The position numbers were made by a program, and so were the translations under genes. Of a DNA stretch of 9,489 nucleotides, positions 288 to 5,234 are shown in pieces. Position 1 is the stretch's first letter, and every line of letters starts with the position of its first letter. This DNA is from Bacilli bacterium (GTDB lineage Bacteria; Bacillota_I; Bacilli_A; RFN20; CAG-826): the NCBI GenBank assembly GCA_017617775.1, contig JAFZVO010000028.1, positions 1 to 9,489 on the forward strand. The letters are read 5' to 3'. The notes beneath the pieces are model-generated. The model saw nothing but the letters and a program-made list of their open reading frames with translations. It made no database searches and was not told where the DNA came from.

Positions 288-2339
288 ATGGAAAAAGCAC
301 AGAAGCGTAGTTTCTTTGAAAGCAAATTGATGCGCACAAAGATCAAAAGCCAAAATGTTTCCTTATTTCCAGAAGCCGGACTTGGCTATCTATTAGGACC
401 AATCCTCGCCTTATTATCTAATGGCGTGATCAACATCTGGTTAATTCAATACTGGGATAAAGTATTAGGCTTAGGATCATGGGCTCCATTATTTGAAACC
501 CTATTACCAATCATCTCGTCTATCGTCATCGTCATCGGTAATTTATTCGTCGGACGATTGATGGAGAGAAAACCATCCTTAGCTGGTAAAGCGAGACCTT
601 TAATTCTATTAGGTATGCCTGCCGTTGCGGTAGCGTTACTCGCCTTATTCTTAGTTCCGTTCCCAACGGCGGCTCAAGAAGAAACAGTGATCGCTGGCCT
701 CATCTCTGGTAACGTCTCTACTGAAGGTGGTTTATTAGCCTCAATTATCATCGCGGTTGGTTATAACTTATATTATGCGATTGCTTGGCCAATCTATTTC
801 ACATCACATTCCGCTTTAGTGAACTTATCCACTCGTGATAGCGGTAAACGTGGTTTATTATCCACTGCGGTCATGGCCGCCCAATTAGCGGCAGCCGGCG
901 TCTCTGGTATGTTCGGCGGATTATTGATTGACTTATTAGGATTATTACCTGTCTATACTTATTCTGATGCTTATATCGCCGCGAACAACTTAGGTGATAT
1001 CACATTCACCAACGATTTCAATGAAGTCGCCGGTTTAACACAAGGCACTGATTACACAATCACAATCAGCCGTCAACAAGCCAACGAGAAATGGACTATC
1101 TTAATGATCGTCATGATCGTCGCCTTAATCGTCGGTTGTATCTTAGAATATTTCTTCACTCGTGAAAGAATCACTGAAGAAACAGTGAAACTCAATGAAA
1201 AAGCGGAAGCCAGCGGTGAGAATAAGAAAGAACCAAAGAAAGTTTCCATGAAACAACAATTCGCCATCTGTGCGAAAGATAAATACTGGTGGTTCATCAT
1301 GATCTTCTGGTTCCTCTATCAATTCGGCGGACAGATGAAGAACAATGCGATGTCATTCTATTCCCAAGCTTTGACTGGTGGAAACTCCGTCTCCTCACTG
1401 ATCAATACAGTGGGTGCAATTCCAACAGCCTTAGGTATGGCTCTCGTCTGGCCTCTCGCCAATAAATTCACCAAAGCGAAAACTATTTCTTTAGGTGGTG
1501 TCGTCGCCGCTTTAGCGGCTGCTGCAGGATTCACTGCTCTCGCCTTTGTCGGCAACACTGCTGCTGTTGCGGGTATTTCTGTCGCTTCCTTCTGTATCAA
1601 AGCCTTAGGCACAGCTCCAGCGATGTATATCTCCTTAGCTTTAATGGCGAACGTCTTAGATCACCAAGAAGCGGTCCACGGTGTTCGTACTGATGGATTA
1701 TCGATGGCGATCTATGGTTCCTTAATCGTCGCTTCTGCGGGTATCTGTAACGGTATCATCGTCGGCCTTAACGCCGCCTTCCCGAACGATAGAGCGTTCC
1801 TCCATACATTCCTCGCTTACGGCGTGGAAGGTATCTGCTATCTCATTATCGCGATTATGTTCTTGTTCATGGGCGTTGAGAAATTCACTAAACTCGATGG
1901 ACAAGCGATCATCGCTGACCAAAAGAAGAGATGTGACAATCTCGGTATCGAATATGTCGCTCCTGATGTGAGAATGAAACTCGAAGAGGAAGAAGCGAAG
2001 AAAGAAACTGAGAAAGAAAGAATCGCTAAGCTCAAAGAGAAATGCGAAAAACAAGGCTTAGACTTCACTGTAGAAGAACAGAAATATCAAAACGCTCTCG
2101 CGGAAAAACAAGCAGCCGCGGATGCGAAAAAGAAAGAGGCGGAAGAGAAGAAAGCCGCCAAAGAAGCCGAAGCGAAAGCGAAATATGACGCTTTATCTCC
2201 TGAAGAGAAACAAGCTTTAGAAGAGAAGAAAGCCGCGAAAGATGCCAAACAAGCGAAACGCGACGCGGAGGTCGAAAAAGAATTTGAAGCCTTACGCGAT
2301 GCGGCAGCTTCTCAAAGAGAACAAGTCCTTCAAGCGTGA
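288..2339 (+). CDS. GPH-family (MFS) sugar:cation symporter with long charged C-terminal tail
   Basis: A polytopic inner-membrane transporter of the glycoside-pentoside-hexuronide:cation symporter type, probably importing a glycoside or oligosaccharide released by the upstream hydrolase. Residues about 25-530 are strongly hydrophobic and carry about 12 segments, with a charged central loop near residues 295-325 (many Lys and Glu). The VLDHQE-x3-GVRTDGLSMAIYG stretch (about residues 458-476) matches the conserved late-loop motif of GPH proteins. AAAGGAG at 272-278 lies 9 nt before the ATG and fixes the start; an ATG at 280 is too close to that site. Usual family length is about 450-500 aa; this protein has 683 because of a roughly 150-residue Glu/Lys/Ala-rich, helix-forming cytoplasmic tail. 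The tail contains two related segments at C549 and C586. The TGA stop lies inside IS-derived sequence (copy A, 2336-2386), so the original C-terminus may have been different. The exact substrate cannot be told. Confidence 0.85.
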   Translation: MEKAQKRSFFESKLMRTKIKSQNVSLFPEAGLGYLLGPILALLSNGVINIWLIQYWDKVLGLGSWAPLFETLLPIISSIVIVIGNLFVGRLMERKPSLAGKARPLILLGMPAVAVALLALFLVPFPTAAQEETVIAGLISGNVSTEGGLLASIIIAVGYNLYYAIAWPIYFTSHSALVNLSTRDSGKRGLLSTAVMAAQLAAAGVSGMFGGLLIDLLGLLPVYTYSDAYIAANNLGDITFTNDFNEVAGLTQGTDYTITISRQQANEKWTILMIVMIVALIVGCILEYFFTRERITEETVKLNEKAEASGENKKEPKKVSMKQQFAICAKDKYWWFIMIFWFLYQFGGQMKNNAMSFYSQALTGGNSVSSLINTVGAIPTALGMALVWPLANKFTKAKTISLGGVVAALAAAAGFTALAFVGNTAAVAGISVASFCIKALGTAPAMYISLALMANVLDHQEAVHGVRTDGLSMAIYGSLIVASAGICNGIIVGLNAAFPNDRAFLHTFLAYGVEGICYLIIAIMFLFMGVEKFTKLDGQAIIADQKKRCDNLGIEYVAPDVRMKLEEEEAKKETEKERIAKLKEKCEKQGLDFTVEEQKYQNALAEKQAAADAKKKEAEEKKAAKEAEAKAKYDALSPEEKQALEEKKAAKDAKQAKRDAEVEKEFEALRDAAASQREQVLQA

Positions 2340-2386
2340 ACTCACTCGGCAATTGAATAACCGAGGATTCCCGTTCGGCGTCCTAA
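2336..2386 (-). repeat. Copy A: solo IS200/IS605-type right end with tnpB 3'-terminal relic
   Basis: The hairpin CTCGG (2345-2349), 11-nt loop, CCGAG (2361-2365) is the same as the one at the 3' end of the resident tnpB. The 30 bases 2336-2365 match 3615-3644 with two differences, and those two form a compensatory pair (T2346-A2364 versus C3625-G3643). Read on the minus strand in the tnpB frame, the copy encodes a relic ending GYSIAE followed by TGA (2344-2342) and GTTCAC. The resident tnpB ends GYSIAG, TGA, GTTCAC. Identity with copy B stops after GTTCAC, which marks the right tip of the element. The downstream 20 nt on the minus strand, in the guide position of an omega RNA, are antisense to the end of the symporter gene. 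No tnpA or tnpB body is attached. Confidence 0.75.
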
Positions 2387-2401
2387 TTATCTATAATAAT
2401 T

Positions 2402-2440
2402 AACCCCTAGTATGATAAAATATCTATACAGGGGTTTTTG
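2402..2440 (+). terminator. Terminator-like hairpin between the symporter and glf
   Basis: AACCCCT (2402-2408) pairs perfectly with AGGGGTT (2430-2436) across a 21-nt loop and is followed by TTTTTG, as in a Rho-independent terminator for the upstream sugar operon. The loop is longer than usual and also holds the probable glf promoter, so the hairpin may form only in read-through transcripts. A transcript starting inside the loop would carry only the AGGGG half, which could then serve as the glf ribosome binding site. Confidence 0.5.
2413..2421 (+). promoter_or_regulatory. Extended -10 promoter for glf
   Basis: TGATAAAAT is a TGN-plus-hexamer extended -10 box. No convincing -35 hexamer is seen at the right spacing. 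Transcription would start near 2428, giving a leader of about 20 nt that contains AGGGG (2430-2434) 13 nt before the ATG at 2448. A further TATAAT at 2392-2397 could act instead, but it would put the whole terminator-like hairpin in the leader. Confidence 0.45.
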
Positions 2441-2447
2441 TTTACCA

Positions 2448-3554
2448 ATGAAAAAGAAATATGATTATTTGATTGTCGGGTCTGGTCTATATGGATCAAT
2501 CTGCGCTTATGAACTCCATAAAAGAGGATATAAATGCCTGGTCATAGATAAAAGAGACCATATTGGAGGCAATATCTACACGAAGAATGTGGAAGGTATC
2601 AATGTCCACGTCTATGGAGCGCATATTTTCCATACCTCCAATGAAGAAGTTTGGAAATATATCCAGCAGTTCGCTTCGTTCAATAACTTCATCAACTCCC
2701 CGATCGCTATCTACCAAGGAAAGAAATATAATCTCCCTTTTAATATGAACACATTCGTGGAGATCTGGCCTGATGTCTTCACTCCTGAAGATGCGAGAGA
2801 AAAGATAGAAGAAGAAAAGAAAGAATATCATATCGATGAACCGAAGAATCTTGAAGAACAGGCGATCAATCTCGTTGGCAAAACCATCTATGAGAGATTA
2901 ATTAAAGGATACACCGCGAAACAATGGGGAAGACCGTGCACAGAGCTTCCTCCATTCATCATTAAAAGAATTCCAGTTCGATTTGAATATAATAACAACT
3001 ATTTTAACGATATCTATCAAGGTATACCTATCGGAGGATATACCTCAATCATCAGAAAGATGTTAGAAGATATCGATGTCGAATTAAACTGCGATTTCTT
3101 CAAGAAAAGAGAGGAATTAGAATCTCTCGCGGATAAAATCATCTATACTGGTCCAATCGATCAATATTTTGATTATAAATATGGACCATTAGAATATCGC
3201 ACGGTGAGATTTGAAACTGAGATATTAAATACCCCTGATTATCAGGGAAATGCAGTTGTGAACTACACTGAATATGAAGTTCCATACACTCGTATCATCG
3301 AACATAAGCATTTTGAATTCAATACAGCCTCTTTAAGGACCGTAATCAGCAAAGAGTATTCCTCATCCTGGAAACTCGGAGACGAGCCTTATTACCCCGT
3401 TAACGACGATAAAAACAATGAATTATATCAACGATATAAGTTAGAAGCGGATAAACTAAATAACGTTCACTTCGGAGGAAGGCTCGGACAGTATAAATAT
3501 TACGATATGGATAAGGTGATATTAGAAGCCTTAGAATATCTTAAAACCATATAG
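2448..3554 (+). CDS. glf: UDP-galactopyranose mutase
   Basis: A cytoplasmic FAD enzyme that interconverts UDP-galactopyranose and UDP-galactofuranose, the donor for galactofuranose in surface glycans. Counting from the ATG at 2448, the N-terminal FAD-binding loop is VGSGLYG (residues 10-16), followed by the family motif GAHIFHT (57-63). The YTAKQWGRP-x6 segment near residue 160 and the NYTEYEVPYTR-x5-H segment supply the substrate-binding aromatic and arginine residues, and FGGRLGQYKYYDMD near the C-terminus closes the flavin site. The length, 368 aa, is normal for the family. An in-frame ATG at 2412 would add 12 residues (start MIKYLYRGF) that overlap the promoter and hairpin and precede the usual Glf start, so 2448 is preferred. 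No glycosyltransferase or other glycan gene lies beside it. It stands alone between IS relics, so it may have been transferred or stranded from a larger cluster. Confidence 0.93.
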   Translation: MKKKYDYLIVGSGLYGSICAYELHKRGYKCLVIDKRDHIGGNIYTKNVEGINVHVYGAHIFHTSNEEVWKYIQQFASFNNFINSPIAIYQGKKYNLPFNMNTFVEIWPDVFTPEDAREKIEEEKKEYHIDEPKNLEEQAINLVGKTIYERLIKGYTAKQWGRPCTELPPFIIKRIPVRFEYNNNYFNDIYQGIPIGGYTSIIRKMLEDIDVELNCDFFKKREELESLADKIIYTGPIDQYFDYKYGPLEYRTVRFETEILNTPDYQGNAVVNYTEYEVPYTRIIEHKHFEFNTASLRTVISKEYSSSWKLGDEPYYPVNDDKNNELYQRYKLEADKLNNVHFGGRLGQYKYYDMDKVILEALEYLKTI

Positions 3555-3556
3555 AA

Positions 3557-3590
3557 AAGGTGGCACTTAAGCCACCTTATTTCTTTTTCT
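3557..3590 (+). terminator. Bidirectional Rho-independent terminator after glf
   Basis: AAGGTGGC (3557-3564), loop ACTTAA, GCCACCTT (3571-3578) forms a perfect 8-bp stem followed by ATTTCTTTTTC on the plus strand, 2 nt after the glf stop. On the minus strand the same stem is followed by TTCTATAT, preceded by the final TT of the stem, so it can also end transcripts leaving tnpB and its right end. A minus-strand read-through would carry about 35 nt of flank beyond the IS tip, in the position of an omega RNA guide. Confidence 0.88.
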
Positions 3591-3614
3591 CACTGATTTT
3601 CGTGATATAAGATT

Positions 3615-3644
3615 GTGAACTCACCCGGCAATTGAATAACCGGG
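3615..3644 (-). repeat. Copy B: right-end hairpin of the resident IS
   Basis: GTGAACTCAC (3615-3624) followed by stem CCCGG (3624-3628), 11-nt loop and CCGGG (3640-3644). It overlaps the last codons and TGA stop of tnpB. It matches copy A except for the compensatory C-G pair in the stem. Beyond the stem, toward tnpB, it differs from copies A and C, so it belongs to a different sub-lineage of element. Confidence 0.75.
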
Positions 3645-3740
3645 CATCTGGGTTATGAGCTGGTTGAGTAACTCTTCCAATTCATATCCATCTGGGTAGT
3701 TCCTACCTGATATCCCTACATTACCAGCTTTGCCATTCCA
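3615..3740 (-). ncRNA. Candidate omega RNA (reRNA) scaffold at the tnpB 3' end
   Basis: In IS200/IS605 elements the guide RNA of TnpB covers the 3' end of tnpB and the right end, and its guide is the flanking DNA just past the tip. Here the scaffold would be the minus strand from somewhere inside the tnpB 3' region down to 3615, ending in the covarying hairpin and GTTCAC. The guide would begin AATCTTATATCACG (from 3614 downward). The 5' limit given is approximate. The assignment rests on family knowledge plus the hairpin, with no transcription evidence. Confidence 0.4.
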
Positions 3741-5066
3741 ATTGATGTAATCTTCATTTAAAAACTGATCTGTTACAGGAATATATTCTCTTCTTGGATT
3801 AGATAATCCTTGTAGAGGTATTGGAAAATAAGTATGCACCTCTTGTCGATATAATCTCATGATATTAAATGCCCCGACTGCATCGGCATTATAGATATCA
3901 TTCCCATCTTTAAATAAACCGCGATGTTTTCTTTGACACTTGTTGTAATAATCTTTTGATACTCTTAAGGCTTTAGGAGATACTCCAGAGGAATATGACT
4001 CATTTTGTTTGATGAGTTCAATTCCTTCTAGTTTTAATTTATAAGAAAGCATTTCATATATACGAGAAAAGCATATAGAACGGATATTTTGGTTATATCG
4101 ATGTTTCTCTTTATTATTGATGAACTCTTTCTTGCTAGTAAGCATTCCTGATAGGTCTCCTATTATCACTTTAGAGATATCGTGAGTAATACAATAATCA
4201 ATGATGTATTTGCTCACTCGATGGAGAACGAGATTAATCCTTTTGTTTTTAAGTTCATATAAATGTTTGATTCTTTTGGTTGTTTCTCCTTTCTTATGGT
4301 TTGGAAAACATTTATCGAACTTTGATTGATAACAAGCAATCGTTTTTGAGAAATAGTAACTAGTATTGAGAATAGATTGACCTGAGACAATAAAAGAGGA
4401 CCCCTTATTGTCATAGACTGTTAACAGGTTATTAGTTCCAATATCAATGCTTATATAATGCTTGTTGTCATCTTTAAGAGGTTTATTGTTTTGTTCATAT
4501 ATCACATACACTTTGTATTTGTTCTTGTTGATATATGAAAACTCTATTTGTTTGATGATATTAAACGACTTTTTTAATTTGATATAGAAGAATTGATCAG
4601 TGATTTGATATTTATCTTTAAGATGTGTTTTTAAAGCTTTGGGAATGGACAGTCTTACTTTATTATCCATAACCTTAATGCCACCAGAAAGATATTTGAT
4701 ATTTGTATGACTACCATCTTTCTTATAGTAAGGTGGCTGAGGTTCTCCATCCTTTTCTTTTAAATGTTTTTGGTTCTTATTATATTCCCACTTCTCATGA
4801 AGGGTGAAATAGCTCTTCCAAGCCTCATCTAATCTTGCAAGAACTTCTTGGCTGGTTTGGCTGGGTAGAGATTTATACCAGATATTATCCTTTAATCTTT
4901 TCTTTTGATCATACCAATCTGGCATTACATCAAATCCAAGAGACTTATACTCTTTTCTTTCATAATTGCCAACATTGAATAATTTAGACGCTGCATAAGA
5001 AAGATGTCCTAAGATAACGGACAACTTTTCATCGACTCTTAATTCAAATTGGTAAGTTAGTAACAT
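3621..5066 (-). CDS. tnpB: RNA-guided nuclease TnpB, zinc-ribbon-less type with relocated RuvC-II glutamate
   Basis: IS200/IS605-family OrfB/TnpB, ancestor-type relative of Cas12, which cuts DNA guided by an RNA made from the element's right end. The N-terminal part has the usual LPSQTSQEVLARLDEAWKSYF region (67-87). RuvC-I is ISIDIGTNNL with D208. The usual RuvC-II position reads VIIGDLSG, with G303 where canonical TnpB has the catalytic Glu. The next block is QNESYSSG with E356, then RGLFKDG and YNADAVGAFNI with RuvC-III D395. The Cys-x2-Cys zinc ribbon is absent. This pattern matches the TnpB group with ESYTSKASFLD and NADVNGAxNI motifs, in which the catalytic glutamate is thought to have moved, so the protein is probably active rather than dead. 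The length of 481 aa is full. AGGAAG lies 4-5 nt before the ATG, which settles the start. Base composition is visibly more AT-rich than in the neighbouring genes, as expected for mobile DNA. Confidence 0.88.
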   Translation of the reverse strand: MLLTYQFELRVDEKLSVILGHLSYAASKLFNVGNYERKEYKSLGFDVMPDWYDQKKRLKDNIWYKSLPSQTSQEVLARLDEAWKSYFTLHEKWEYNKNQKHLKEKDGEPQPPYYKKDGSHTNIKYLSGGIKVMDNKVRLSIPKALKTHLKDKYQITDQFFYIKLKKSFNIIKQIEFSYINKNKYKVYVIYEQNNKPLKDDNKHYISIDIGTNNLLTVYDNKGSSFIVSGQSILNTSYYFSKTIACYQSKFDKCFPNHKKGETTKRIKHLYELKNKRINLVLHRVSKYIIDYCITHDISKVIIGDLSGMLTSKKEFINNKEKHRYNQNIRSICFSRIYEMLSYKLKLEGIELIKQNESYSSGVSPKALRVSKDYYNKCQRKHRGLFKDGNDIYNADAVGAFNIMRLYRQEVHTYFPIPLQGLSNPRREYIPVTDQFLNEDYINWNGKAGNVGISGRNYPDGYELEELLNQLITQMPGYSIAG

Positions 5067-5083
5067 ATTATCTTCCTATTAAT

Positions 5084-5092
5084 ATTATATCA
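5084..5092 (-). promoter_or_regulatory. Extended -10 promoter of tnpB
   Basis: On the minus strand TGATATAAT gives a consensus extended -10 (TGA plus TATAAT). Transcription would start at about 5077, inside or just before the AGGAAG ribosome binding site, so the leader would be only about 11 nt. The possible -35 (TGGAGT, 5112-5107) is poor and falls inside the palindrome at 5096-5115. Confidence 0.6.
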
Positions 5093-5095
5093 AAT

Positions 5096-5115
5096 AAGTG
5101 GAGTTTACTCCACTT
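5096..5115. repeat. Perfect 9-bp palindrome upstream of tnpB (probable left-end hairpin)
   Basis: AAGTGGAGTTTACTCCACTT is a 9+2+9 inverted repeat about 30 bp upstream of tnpB. IS200/IS605 elements carry a subterminal hairpin at each end that the Y1 transposase recognises as single-stranded DNA, and this is in the right place for the left one. It also overlaps the -35 region of the tnpB promoter, so it could double as an operator. Its sequence does not resemble the right-end hairpins. Confidence 0.55.
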
Positions 5116-5192
5116 AATATTTCTATTATTACAACATAATTTTATCACATATAGTGACGATTATAATCTTAACAAACAAGGCTCACTTTCAT

Positions 5193-5234
5193 CTCGGCAG
5201 TTGAACAACCGAGGATTCCCGTTCGATGTCCTAA
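5193..5234 (-). repeat. Copy C: solo IS200/IS605-type right-end hairpin abutting the GNAT gene
   Basis: The 42 bases match copy A (2345-2386) at 38 positions. Two of the four differences form a compensatory pair in the hairpin loop (A2352-T2358 versus G5200-C5206). The stem is CTCGG/CCGAG. On the minus strand the conserved unit starts TTAGGAC, and its TAG is the stop codon of the GNAT gene. Past the hairpin the sequence reads GATGAAAGTGAG and lacks the TGA-GTTCAC tip found in A and B, so the right tip is lost or altered. It has no T-run and is not a Rho-independent terminator. Confidence 0.7.

Follow-up and report, generated by a model that had tools for sequence, protein, structure and literature searches.

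The 9,489-nt stretch of Bacilli bacterium DNA analysed here (contig JAFZVO010000028.1; hereafter the window) carries a 1616-bp element of the IS200/IS605 type at 3615..5230 and, at 2336..2382, a gene-less sequence of 47 nt in which the left-end and right-end flanks of such an element enclose a single hairpin (hereafter a solo); both lie on the minus strand, and all parts are read below in the orientation of tnpB, that is, on this strand. The mobile-element gene seen in the window is tnpB (3621..5066), whose 481-residue product matched Pfam OrfB_IS605 (3.8e-17) and Cas12f1-like_TNB (5.2e-7) and scored 148.3 bits against NCBIfam guided_TnpB (cut-off 100). The window copy has no tnpA, and the 126 nt between its left-end hairpin and the tnpB start leave no room for one. 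Its left end, at 5230, lies directly 3' of TTAG (5231..5234), the predicted target and left cleavage site, which overlaps the stop codon of an upstream GNAT-family gene. The left-end hairpin (copy C, 5193..5213) has this TTAG and 17 nt before it, with the putative left guide AATC at 5214..5217, and the interior sequence ATGAAAGTGA after it. The right-end hairpin (copy B, 3624..3644) overlaps the 3' end of tnpB, the final codons of which traverse it (PGYSIAG-stop); it is preceded by the putative right guide GATG (3645..3648), and the element finishes at 3615 in TTCAC, the last 4 nt of which, TCAC (3615..3618), represent the right cleavage site. The third hairpin (copy A, 2345..2365) belongs to the solo, which sits at the end of an MFS-transporter gene behind the target site TTAG (2383..2386) and carries the left-type guide AATC (2366..2369), mismatched to its own right cleavage site TCAC.

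A preliminary description of this DNA had claimed three 21-nt hairpins, each with a 5-bp stem and an 11-nt loop, and a co-ordinated change in two of their base pairs, and these claims were borne out. A search of the window with the pattern CYCGGCARTTGAAYAACCGRG, tolerating up to 3 mismatches (none was needed), gave exactly three matches, at 2345-2365, 3624-3644 and 5193-5213, all on the plus strand. Only 0.01 matches were expected by chance and three were reached in 0 of 200 shuffles, so the three matches are no chance event. The outer pair is T-A in A and C and C-G in B, while the inner pair is A-T in A (2352/2358) and B (3631/3637) and G-C in C (5200/5206). The stability of the folds was ordinary, with z values for A, B and C of -0.7, -1.5 and -0.8 as RNA and of -0.2, -1.7 and -0.6 as DNA; therefore, we built the case on recurrence and context, not on folding energy.

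An exact search of a genome contig collection with CYCGGCARTTGAAYAACCGRG returned 76 copies on 75 stretches from Bacilli and Clostridia, in line with the expectation that further copies exist, and many of these lie in genomes other than that of the window. Record titles assign them to Bacilli, Bacillales, Erysipelotrichaceae, Lachnospiraceae, Ruminococcus, Hespellia and further Clostridia, with rumen or gut as a frequent source. The copies fell into three contexts. Left ends read T(T/C)AG, about 17 nt ending mostly in AATC or GATC, the hairpin and then the interior (ATGAAA.. or AGGAAT..); right ends read ..GATG, the hairpin and then T(A/G)(A/G)GTTCAC or TAGTTCAC, with diverging flanks beyond; and solos join a left-end flank, a single hairpin and a right-end flank. 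Flanks diverged 5' of TTAG or TCAG and 3' of TTCAC, which places the limits of the window element at 3615-5230 and those of the solo at 2336-2382. Including the window, this exact set holds 79 copies, namely 55 left ends, copy C among them, 10 right ends and 14 solos. The three hairpins had been taken for three right ends, and this was mistaken: B alone is a right end, C is a left end and A is a solo fusion of left and right. The 42 nt that A and C have in common at 90% are explained in the same way, since both start with the left end of the element.

We also assembled a wider set, which after sorting comprised 44 left ends, 40 right ends and 44 solos. The exact pattern supplied most of its left ends, whereas part of its right ends and solos were gathered by looser searches; for this reason the exact set is the better ground for comparing ends with solos. 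Chance matches were removed from it (L048, second matches in L063 and L211 as solos, and L038 as a right end), L278 was reassigned from right end to solo, and the candidate solos L276, L277 and L284 failed the sorting rule and lie outside the counts.

For IS608 of Helicobacter pylori, the cleavage sites and guides are given as TTAC and AAAG on the left and TCAA and GAAT on the right, with base pairs A+16:T-3 and A+17:T-4 (PMC5934647), which sets guide position 1 opposite cleavage position 2 and guide position 2 opposite cleavage position 1. We extended this rule by a pair between guide position 4 and cleavage position 4, which fits both IS608 guide/cleavage pairs. With the guide taken 5' of the hairpin, AATC/TTAG, GATC/TCAG and GATG/TCAC each satisfied all three pairs. 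Across the wider set the three-pair rule held in 41 of the 42 left ends with a located target and in 38 of 40 right ends; the other two of the 44 left ends (L030 and L154) lacked a T(T/C)AG at the distance where it was expected and were kept out of the left-side counts, as were 11 of the 44 solos. On their left side the solos obeyed the rule in 30 of 33 cases with a located target, on their right side in 0 of 44, and they thus join a left guide to a right cleavage site. Because the sorting by context had partly used the guide letters, the exact set was retallied without them. The 55 copies with no right motif carried AATC (45), GATC (8), AAGC (1) or GCTC (1); copies with both a right and a left motif carried AATC in 10 of 10; and copies with a right but no left motif carried GATG (10), AATC (3) or TATC (1). 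The four non-GATG copies of this last group (L017, L024, L028 and L069) are solos in which letters of the target or its neighbours are altered, and L008 had only 17 nt upstream, too short for the left-motif check. Two further hairpins, in L027 and L047, were not captured by the sorting rule; CATG precedes them and TTGAC follows, and CATG/TGAC likewise satisfies the three pairs. The four letters beside the hairpin, with those beyond it, separate working ends from what we regard as scars.

The genome G043, a sister genome of the same genus as another relative, G013, lacks the insertion at A and keeps the order of the MFS and GLF genes. When window positions 2101-2335 were joined to 2383-2480 and compared with G043, the junction was gapless with a score of 143, against 122.5 with the 47 nt retained. 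By this comparison, copy A looks like a 47-nt insertion without target duplication, the exactness of which leans also on flank comparison, as similarity between the window and G043 is no more than about 76-78% in this region. The MFS gene takes its TGA stop from the insertion; without it the frame would read CAA GCC TAA. For the full window element, no base-exact empty site was found in G013 or G043: G013 is without the element at the end of the GNAT gene but is too diverged there to align, and a search of the 19 kb examined in G043 did not turn up the GNAT gene. Hence the limits of the full copy and its lack of a target duplication stand on the flank divergence among its relatives.

Among the 42 genomes reached through these loci, tnpB relatives (E up to 1e-30) occurred in 23 and matches to the Y1 transposase (PF01797) in 33, 32 of them over the curated cut-off. 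On 21 contigs the Y1 match lay 13-80 nt upstream of the tnpB match, giving the order tnpA, tnpB; this pairing draws on 51 tnpB match rows, many of them cut by contig ends. Two copies in G013 (G013:C5:13267-14891 and 20971-22592) align end to end with the window element; both are near to it in sequence, without tnpA, and have one in-frame tnpB stop each. An element of Ruminococcus (L027) shares the left hairpin, has a related one on its other side, and encloses an IscB gene (NCBIfam guided_IscB, 275.5 bits; cut-off 175) that runs the opposite way. That elements carrying different RNA-guided nucleases have this hairpin in common suggests that it is read by the transposase. The claim of an end hairpin with co-changing pairs in more than one element lineage was correct, as its carriers include TnpB elements in Bacilli and Lachnospiraceae and an IscB element in Ruminococcus. 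The latter element (L027:1-1779) has the target TCAG, and its other end shows the guide CATG with TTGAC at the contig edge. Its flank motif on the IscB side would be CTGA, which we take to resemble the NWRR-type motif of another IscB.

The window element is thus an ordinary IS200/IS605-type element, with TnpB as cargo, subterminal hairpins, no target duplication and guides that match its cleavage sites, the Y1/HUH transposase gene tnpA being present next to tnpB in its relatives. Copy A is a terminal-only palindrome-associated transposable element (PATE): it has the gene-less length, an IS605-type palindrome and no target duplication, and its left and right ends are fused around one palindrome. 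Most of the striking features of the locus are explained by this known system. As described in PMC5934647, IS608 likewise has subterminal hairpins at both ends, a left end that follows a TTA-type target, a 4-nt guide on the 5' side of each hairpin and the same pairing network; its tnpA and tnpB are matched by the relatives of the window copy, which itself is without tnpA, and the letters here (TTAG/AATC and TCAC/GATG) differ from those of IS608.

Terminal-only PATEs are reported from Haloquadratum walsbyi as 52-bp derivatives of ISHwa23 and HqIRS46, for which a repeat-mediated deletion between palindromes of 19-22 bp is proposed (PMC3119063). Like copy A, they are remnants of IS605-type/TnpB elements or of PATEs, with one near-terminal palindrome and fused left and right flanks; unlike them, copy A has 47 nt instead of 52 bp and belongs to the Bacilli/Clostridia group, not to a haloarchaeon. 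Four allelic pairs are given for HqIRS46 in the same report, none being seen here, and the present analysis adds the guide/cleavage mismatch and the hairpin mosaics. A PATE-like sequence of Halanaerobium hydrogeniformans is likewise an ends-only IS605 derivative in a bacterium, but according to PMC7290912 it spans about 271 nt, retains 58 nt from the close of tnpB together with an entire right end, and is not a single-hairpin fusion. A search of openly licensed papers gave no report of terminal-only elements in this bacterial group; the present set carries their description beyond a haloarchaeon to Bacilli and Clostridia that are uncultured and, by record title, in many cases of gut or rumen origin, and turns puzzling co-varying hairpins into a readable system.

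The exact pattern left each variable pair open within Y/R on both sides, and the pair counts were thus not forced by it; they were made directly on the copies, ignoring kinship. Both variable pairs were Watson-Crick in 64 of 65 ends and in 8 of 14 solos (Fisher p 7e-5), and in 47 of 48 ends against 8 of 14 solos when only distinct rows were counted (p 3e-4). The inner pair of the 65 ends was G-C in 34 and A-T in 31, and the outer pair T-A in 63, C-G in one and C.A in one; the left ends by themselves (n=55) had inner G-C in 34 and A-T in 21. Solos had inner A-T in 11, G.T in two and A.C in one, and outer T-A in eight, C-G in three, T.G in two and C.A in one. Two right ends of G013 showed an inner A.C. 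The preliminary description had held that the pairing is kept under selection. True ends are in line with this, having kept both pairs in 64 of 65 exact copies; only 8 of the 14 solos did so, and for this reason the intact pairing of A is in itself no evidence of selection at its place.

Taken together, these results make it highly probable that the hairpins are single-stranded DNA recognition structures of an IS200/IS605-type (Y1/HUH) transposase, with C and B as the two ends of one element and A as a deletion scar. We infer that the transposase binds the hairpins, that deletion was the route by which A itself arose, and that A is immobile. In the history that we propose, a full element would first have inserted where the MFS-transporter gene ends, 3' of the TTAG; its two 21-nt hairpins, being nearly identical, would later have served as endpoints of a deletion that took the core and one hairpin, leaving the left flank, one hairpin and the right flank, much as a retrotransposon leaves a solo long terminal repeat. 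The co-changing pairs would be kept at working ends because the transposase needs a folded hairpin; at the right end these letters also encode the C-terminus of TnpB and probably belong to the omega-RNA. As the window element is without tnpA, it would have to be moved in trans. Mosaics within single genomes are consistent with this history, several solos combining the left and right hairpin letters of their own genome. Three solos of G009 have the left flank with right-end hairpin letters, the switch lying before position 7; in G020 a solo keeps left letters through position 7 and has a right letter at 20; in G035 another is left-type at position 7 and right-type at 21; and the solo L260 of G013 has a left letter at 8 and a right letter at 16. 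The place of the switch, ahead of position 7 in G009 and beyond it in the other genomes, fits a deletion between direct hairpin repeats.

Several observations weigh against this reading. Copy A is not a single-crossover mosaic of B and C, for it has the outer pair of C and the inner pair of B; its parent would accordingly have had another right end, and the T-A outer type is found in 9 of the 10 right ends of the exact set. The solo L254 of G003, with a right-type letter 3 and a left-type letter 7, does not fit a single switch, and L236 and L251 of G013 carry letters present in neither end. No allelic pair of a full element and a solo was found when 250-nt solo flanks were compared with the loci collected, a comparison that gave matches to other genomes, which were not traced one by one. 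The contrast between ends and solos leans on wobbles: the six exceptional solos have two T.G, two G.T, one C.A and one A.C, and with G.T counted as paired, 2 of 14 solos and 1 of 65 ends are unpaired. In the wider set, a mismatch, meaning one of the seven pairs being neither Watson-Crick nor a G.T wobble, occurred at least once in 3 of the 44 left ends, 11 of the 40 right ends and 21 of the 44 solos; with the outermost pair omitted, the counts were 2, 6 and 14, respectively. Two identical solos stand at unrelated sites in G009, as moving solos would give, and G021, G024 and G029 hold 9, 4 and 8 solos without any classified left or right end, which may reflect lost full copies, gaps in draft genomes or moving solos.

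The last two observations would also be expected if the solo were itself a minimal PATE, a single-hairpin element of 47 nt that a Y1 transposase mobilises in trans, and the six strain-specific 52-bp copies of ISHwa23 may, according to PMC3119063, indicate such mobility. We nevertheless regard this explanation as improbable, as the guide fails the IS608-type rule at the right end of every solo counted, a solo offers one hairpin where IS608 uses two, and the hairpins that are mosaics of local ends point to repeated formation in place. For G021, G024 and G029, the solos possibly record an old invasion reduced to scars, or else mobile solos. These Lachnospiraceae genomes each hold several diverged solos (for example L211, L225, L271-L278; L217, L223; L218, L224, L267-L270).

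The preliminary description had named an omega-RNA or a transposase-recognition hairpin, and the transposase part of it is favoured, since the left ends and the IscB element share the hairpin; an omega-RNA role is likely for B at most. The pairing could in principle be kept for an RNA role, with the hairpin belonging to an omega-RNA at the 3' end of tnpB, and B indeed lies there, adjoining the place where the omega-RNA guide would start. In the tnpB alignment, moreover, the change of the outer pair alters two amino acids together, from L..E to P..G, in the window element and L125, whereas the other aligned Bacilli-type proteins, including the nearest to the window (L118, L119 and L120), retain L..E. 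Such a paired two-residue change is what a base-pairing constraint predicts, and from the alignment nucleic-acid constraint seems to outweigh that on the protein at the right end of these two elements, a case of such constraint within a coding end. Even so, we consider an RNA role an improbable explanation of the pairing as a whole: the hairpin, with its G-C/A-T change (34 and 21 of 55), also stands at left ends, upstream of tnpB, and the shared left hairpin, together with a related one on the far side, encloses an IscB gene of opposite orientation. Rfam likewise gave nothing above gathering scores in the window, its two weak matches (E 0.65 and 0.66) falling on none of the three hairpins.

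It is very unlikely that the solos are sequences like repetitive extragenic palindromes (REPs), moved by a domesticated REP-associated tyrosine transposase. Some Lachnospiraceae do have several single-hairpin copies per genome, and G029 and G031 encode a longer Y1 protein (265-residue open frame), whose link to the hairpins is conjectural; yet the copies match two element ends instead of standing apart from those of tnpA/tnpB insertion sequences, the solos are bounded just as the full element is (TTAG to TTCAC), ends of this kind enclose tnpA and tnpB in relatives, and solos co-occur with full-element ends in G003, G009, G013 and G020. That the hairpins are intrinsic terminators at gene ends is scarcely credible, for although A and C sit just past stop codons, neither has a run of T after the stem on either strand, and the same letters, which match element ends in the contexts of the 79 exact copies, recur between unrelated flanks.

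TnpB has a role in the retention of its element, and the deletion-scar reading of the solos allows a further, rather doubtful suggestion, namely that hairpin deletion is the one loss of the element that TnpB cannot undo. Precise excision would recreate the target-adjacent motif next to a guide-matching flank, which TnpB could cut so that the element would be restored from a sister copy, whereas hairpin deletion would leave 47 nt between motif and flank and so escape TnpB. Terminal-only scars would then accumulate as a fossil record of TnpB-driven retention and be its expected outcome, not a by-product; the solos assembled here offer a test of whether TnpB shapes element loss.

The window TnpB itself (residues 302-305 and 355-358) reads IGD where the usual glutamate of RuvC-II is expected, and the 16 relatives in the alignment have I/V-GD there. 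Further along, a glutamate is conserved (NESY, NEAYTSQC); in those proteins that have the cysteine, it lies six residues after this glutamate. Paired zinc-finger cysteines were not evident in the alignment of this protein. In sequence, this resembles the 'alternative E' arrangement described for Fanzors and some TnpBs in PMC10711439. The tnpB genes of the Bacilli group extend through the right end and its hairpin (..GYSIAE or PGYSIAG; window 3621-3800, minus strand), and those of five aligned Clostridia (L133-L137) end about 55 codons earlier. Judging from these alignments, the reading frame of tnpB appears to have been lengthened across what is presumed to be the omega-RNA region.

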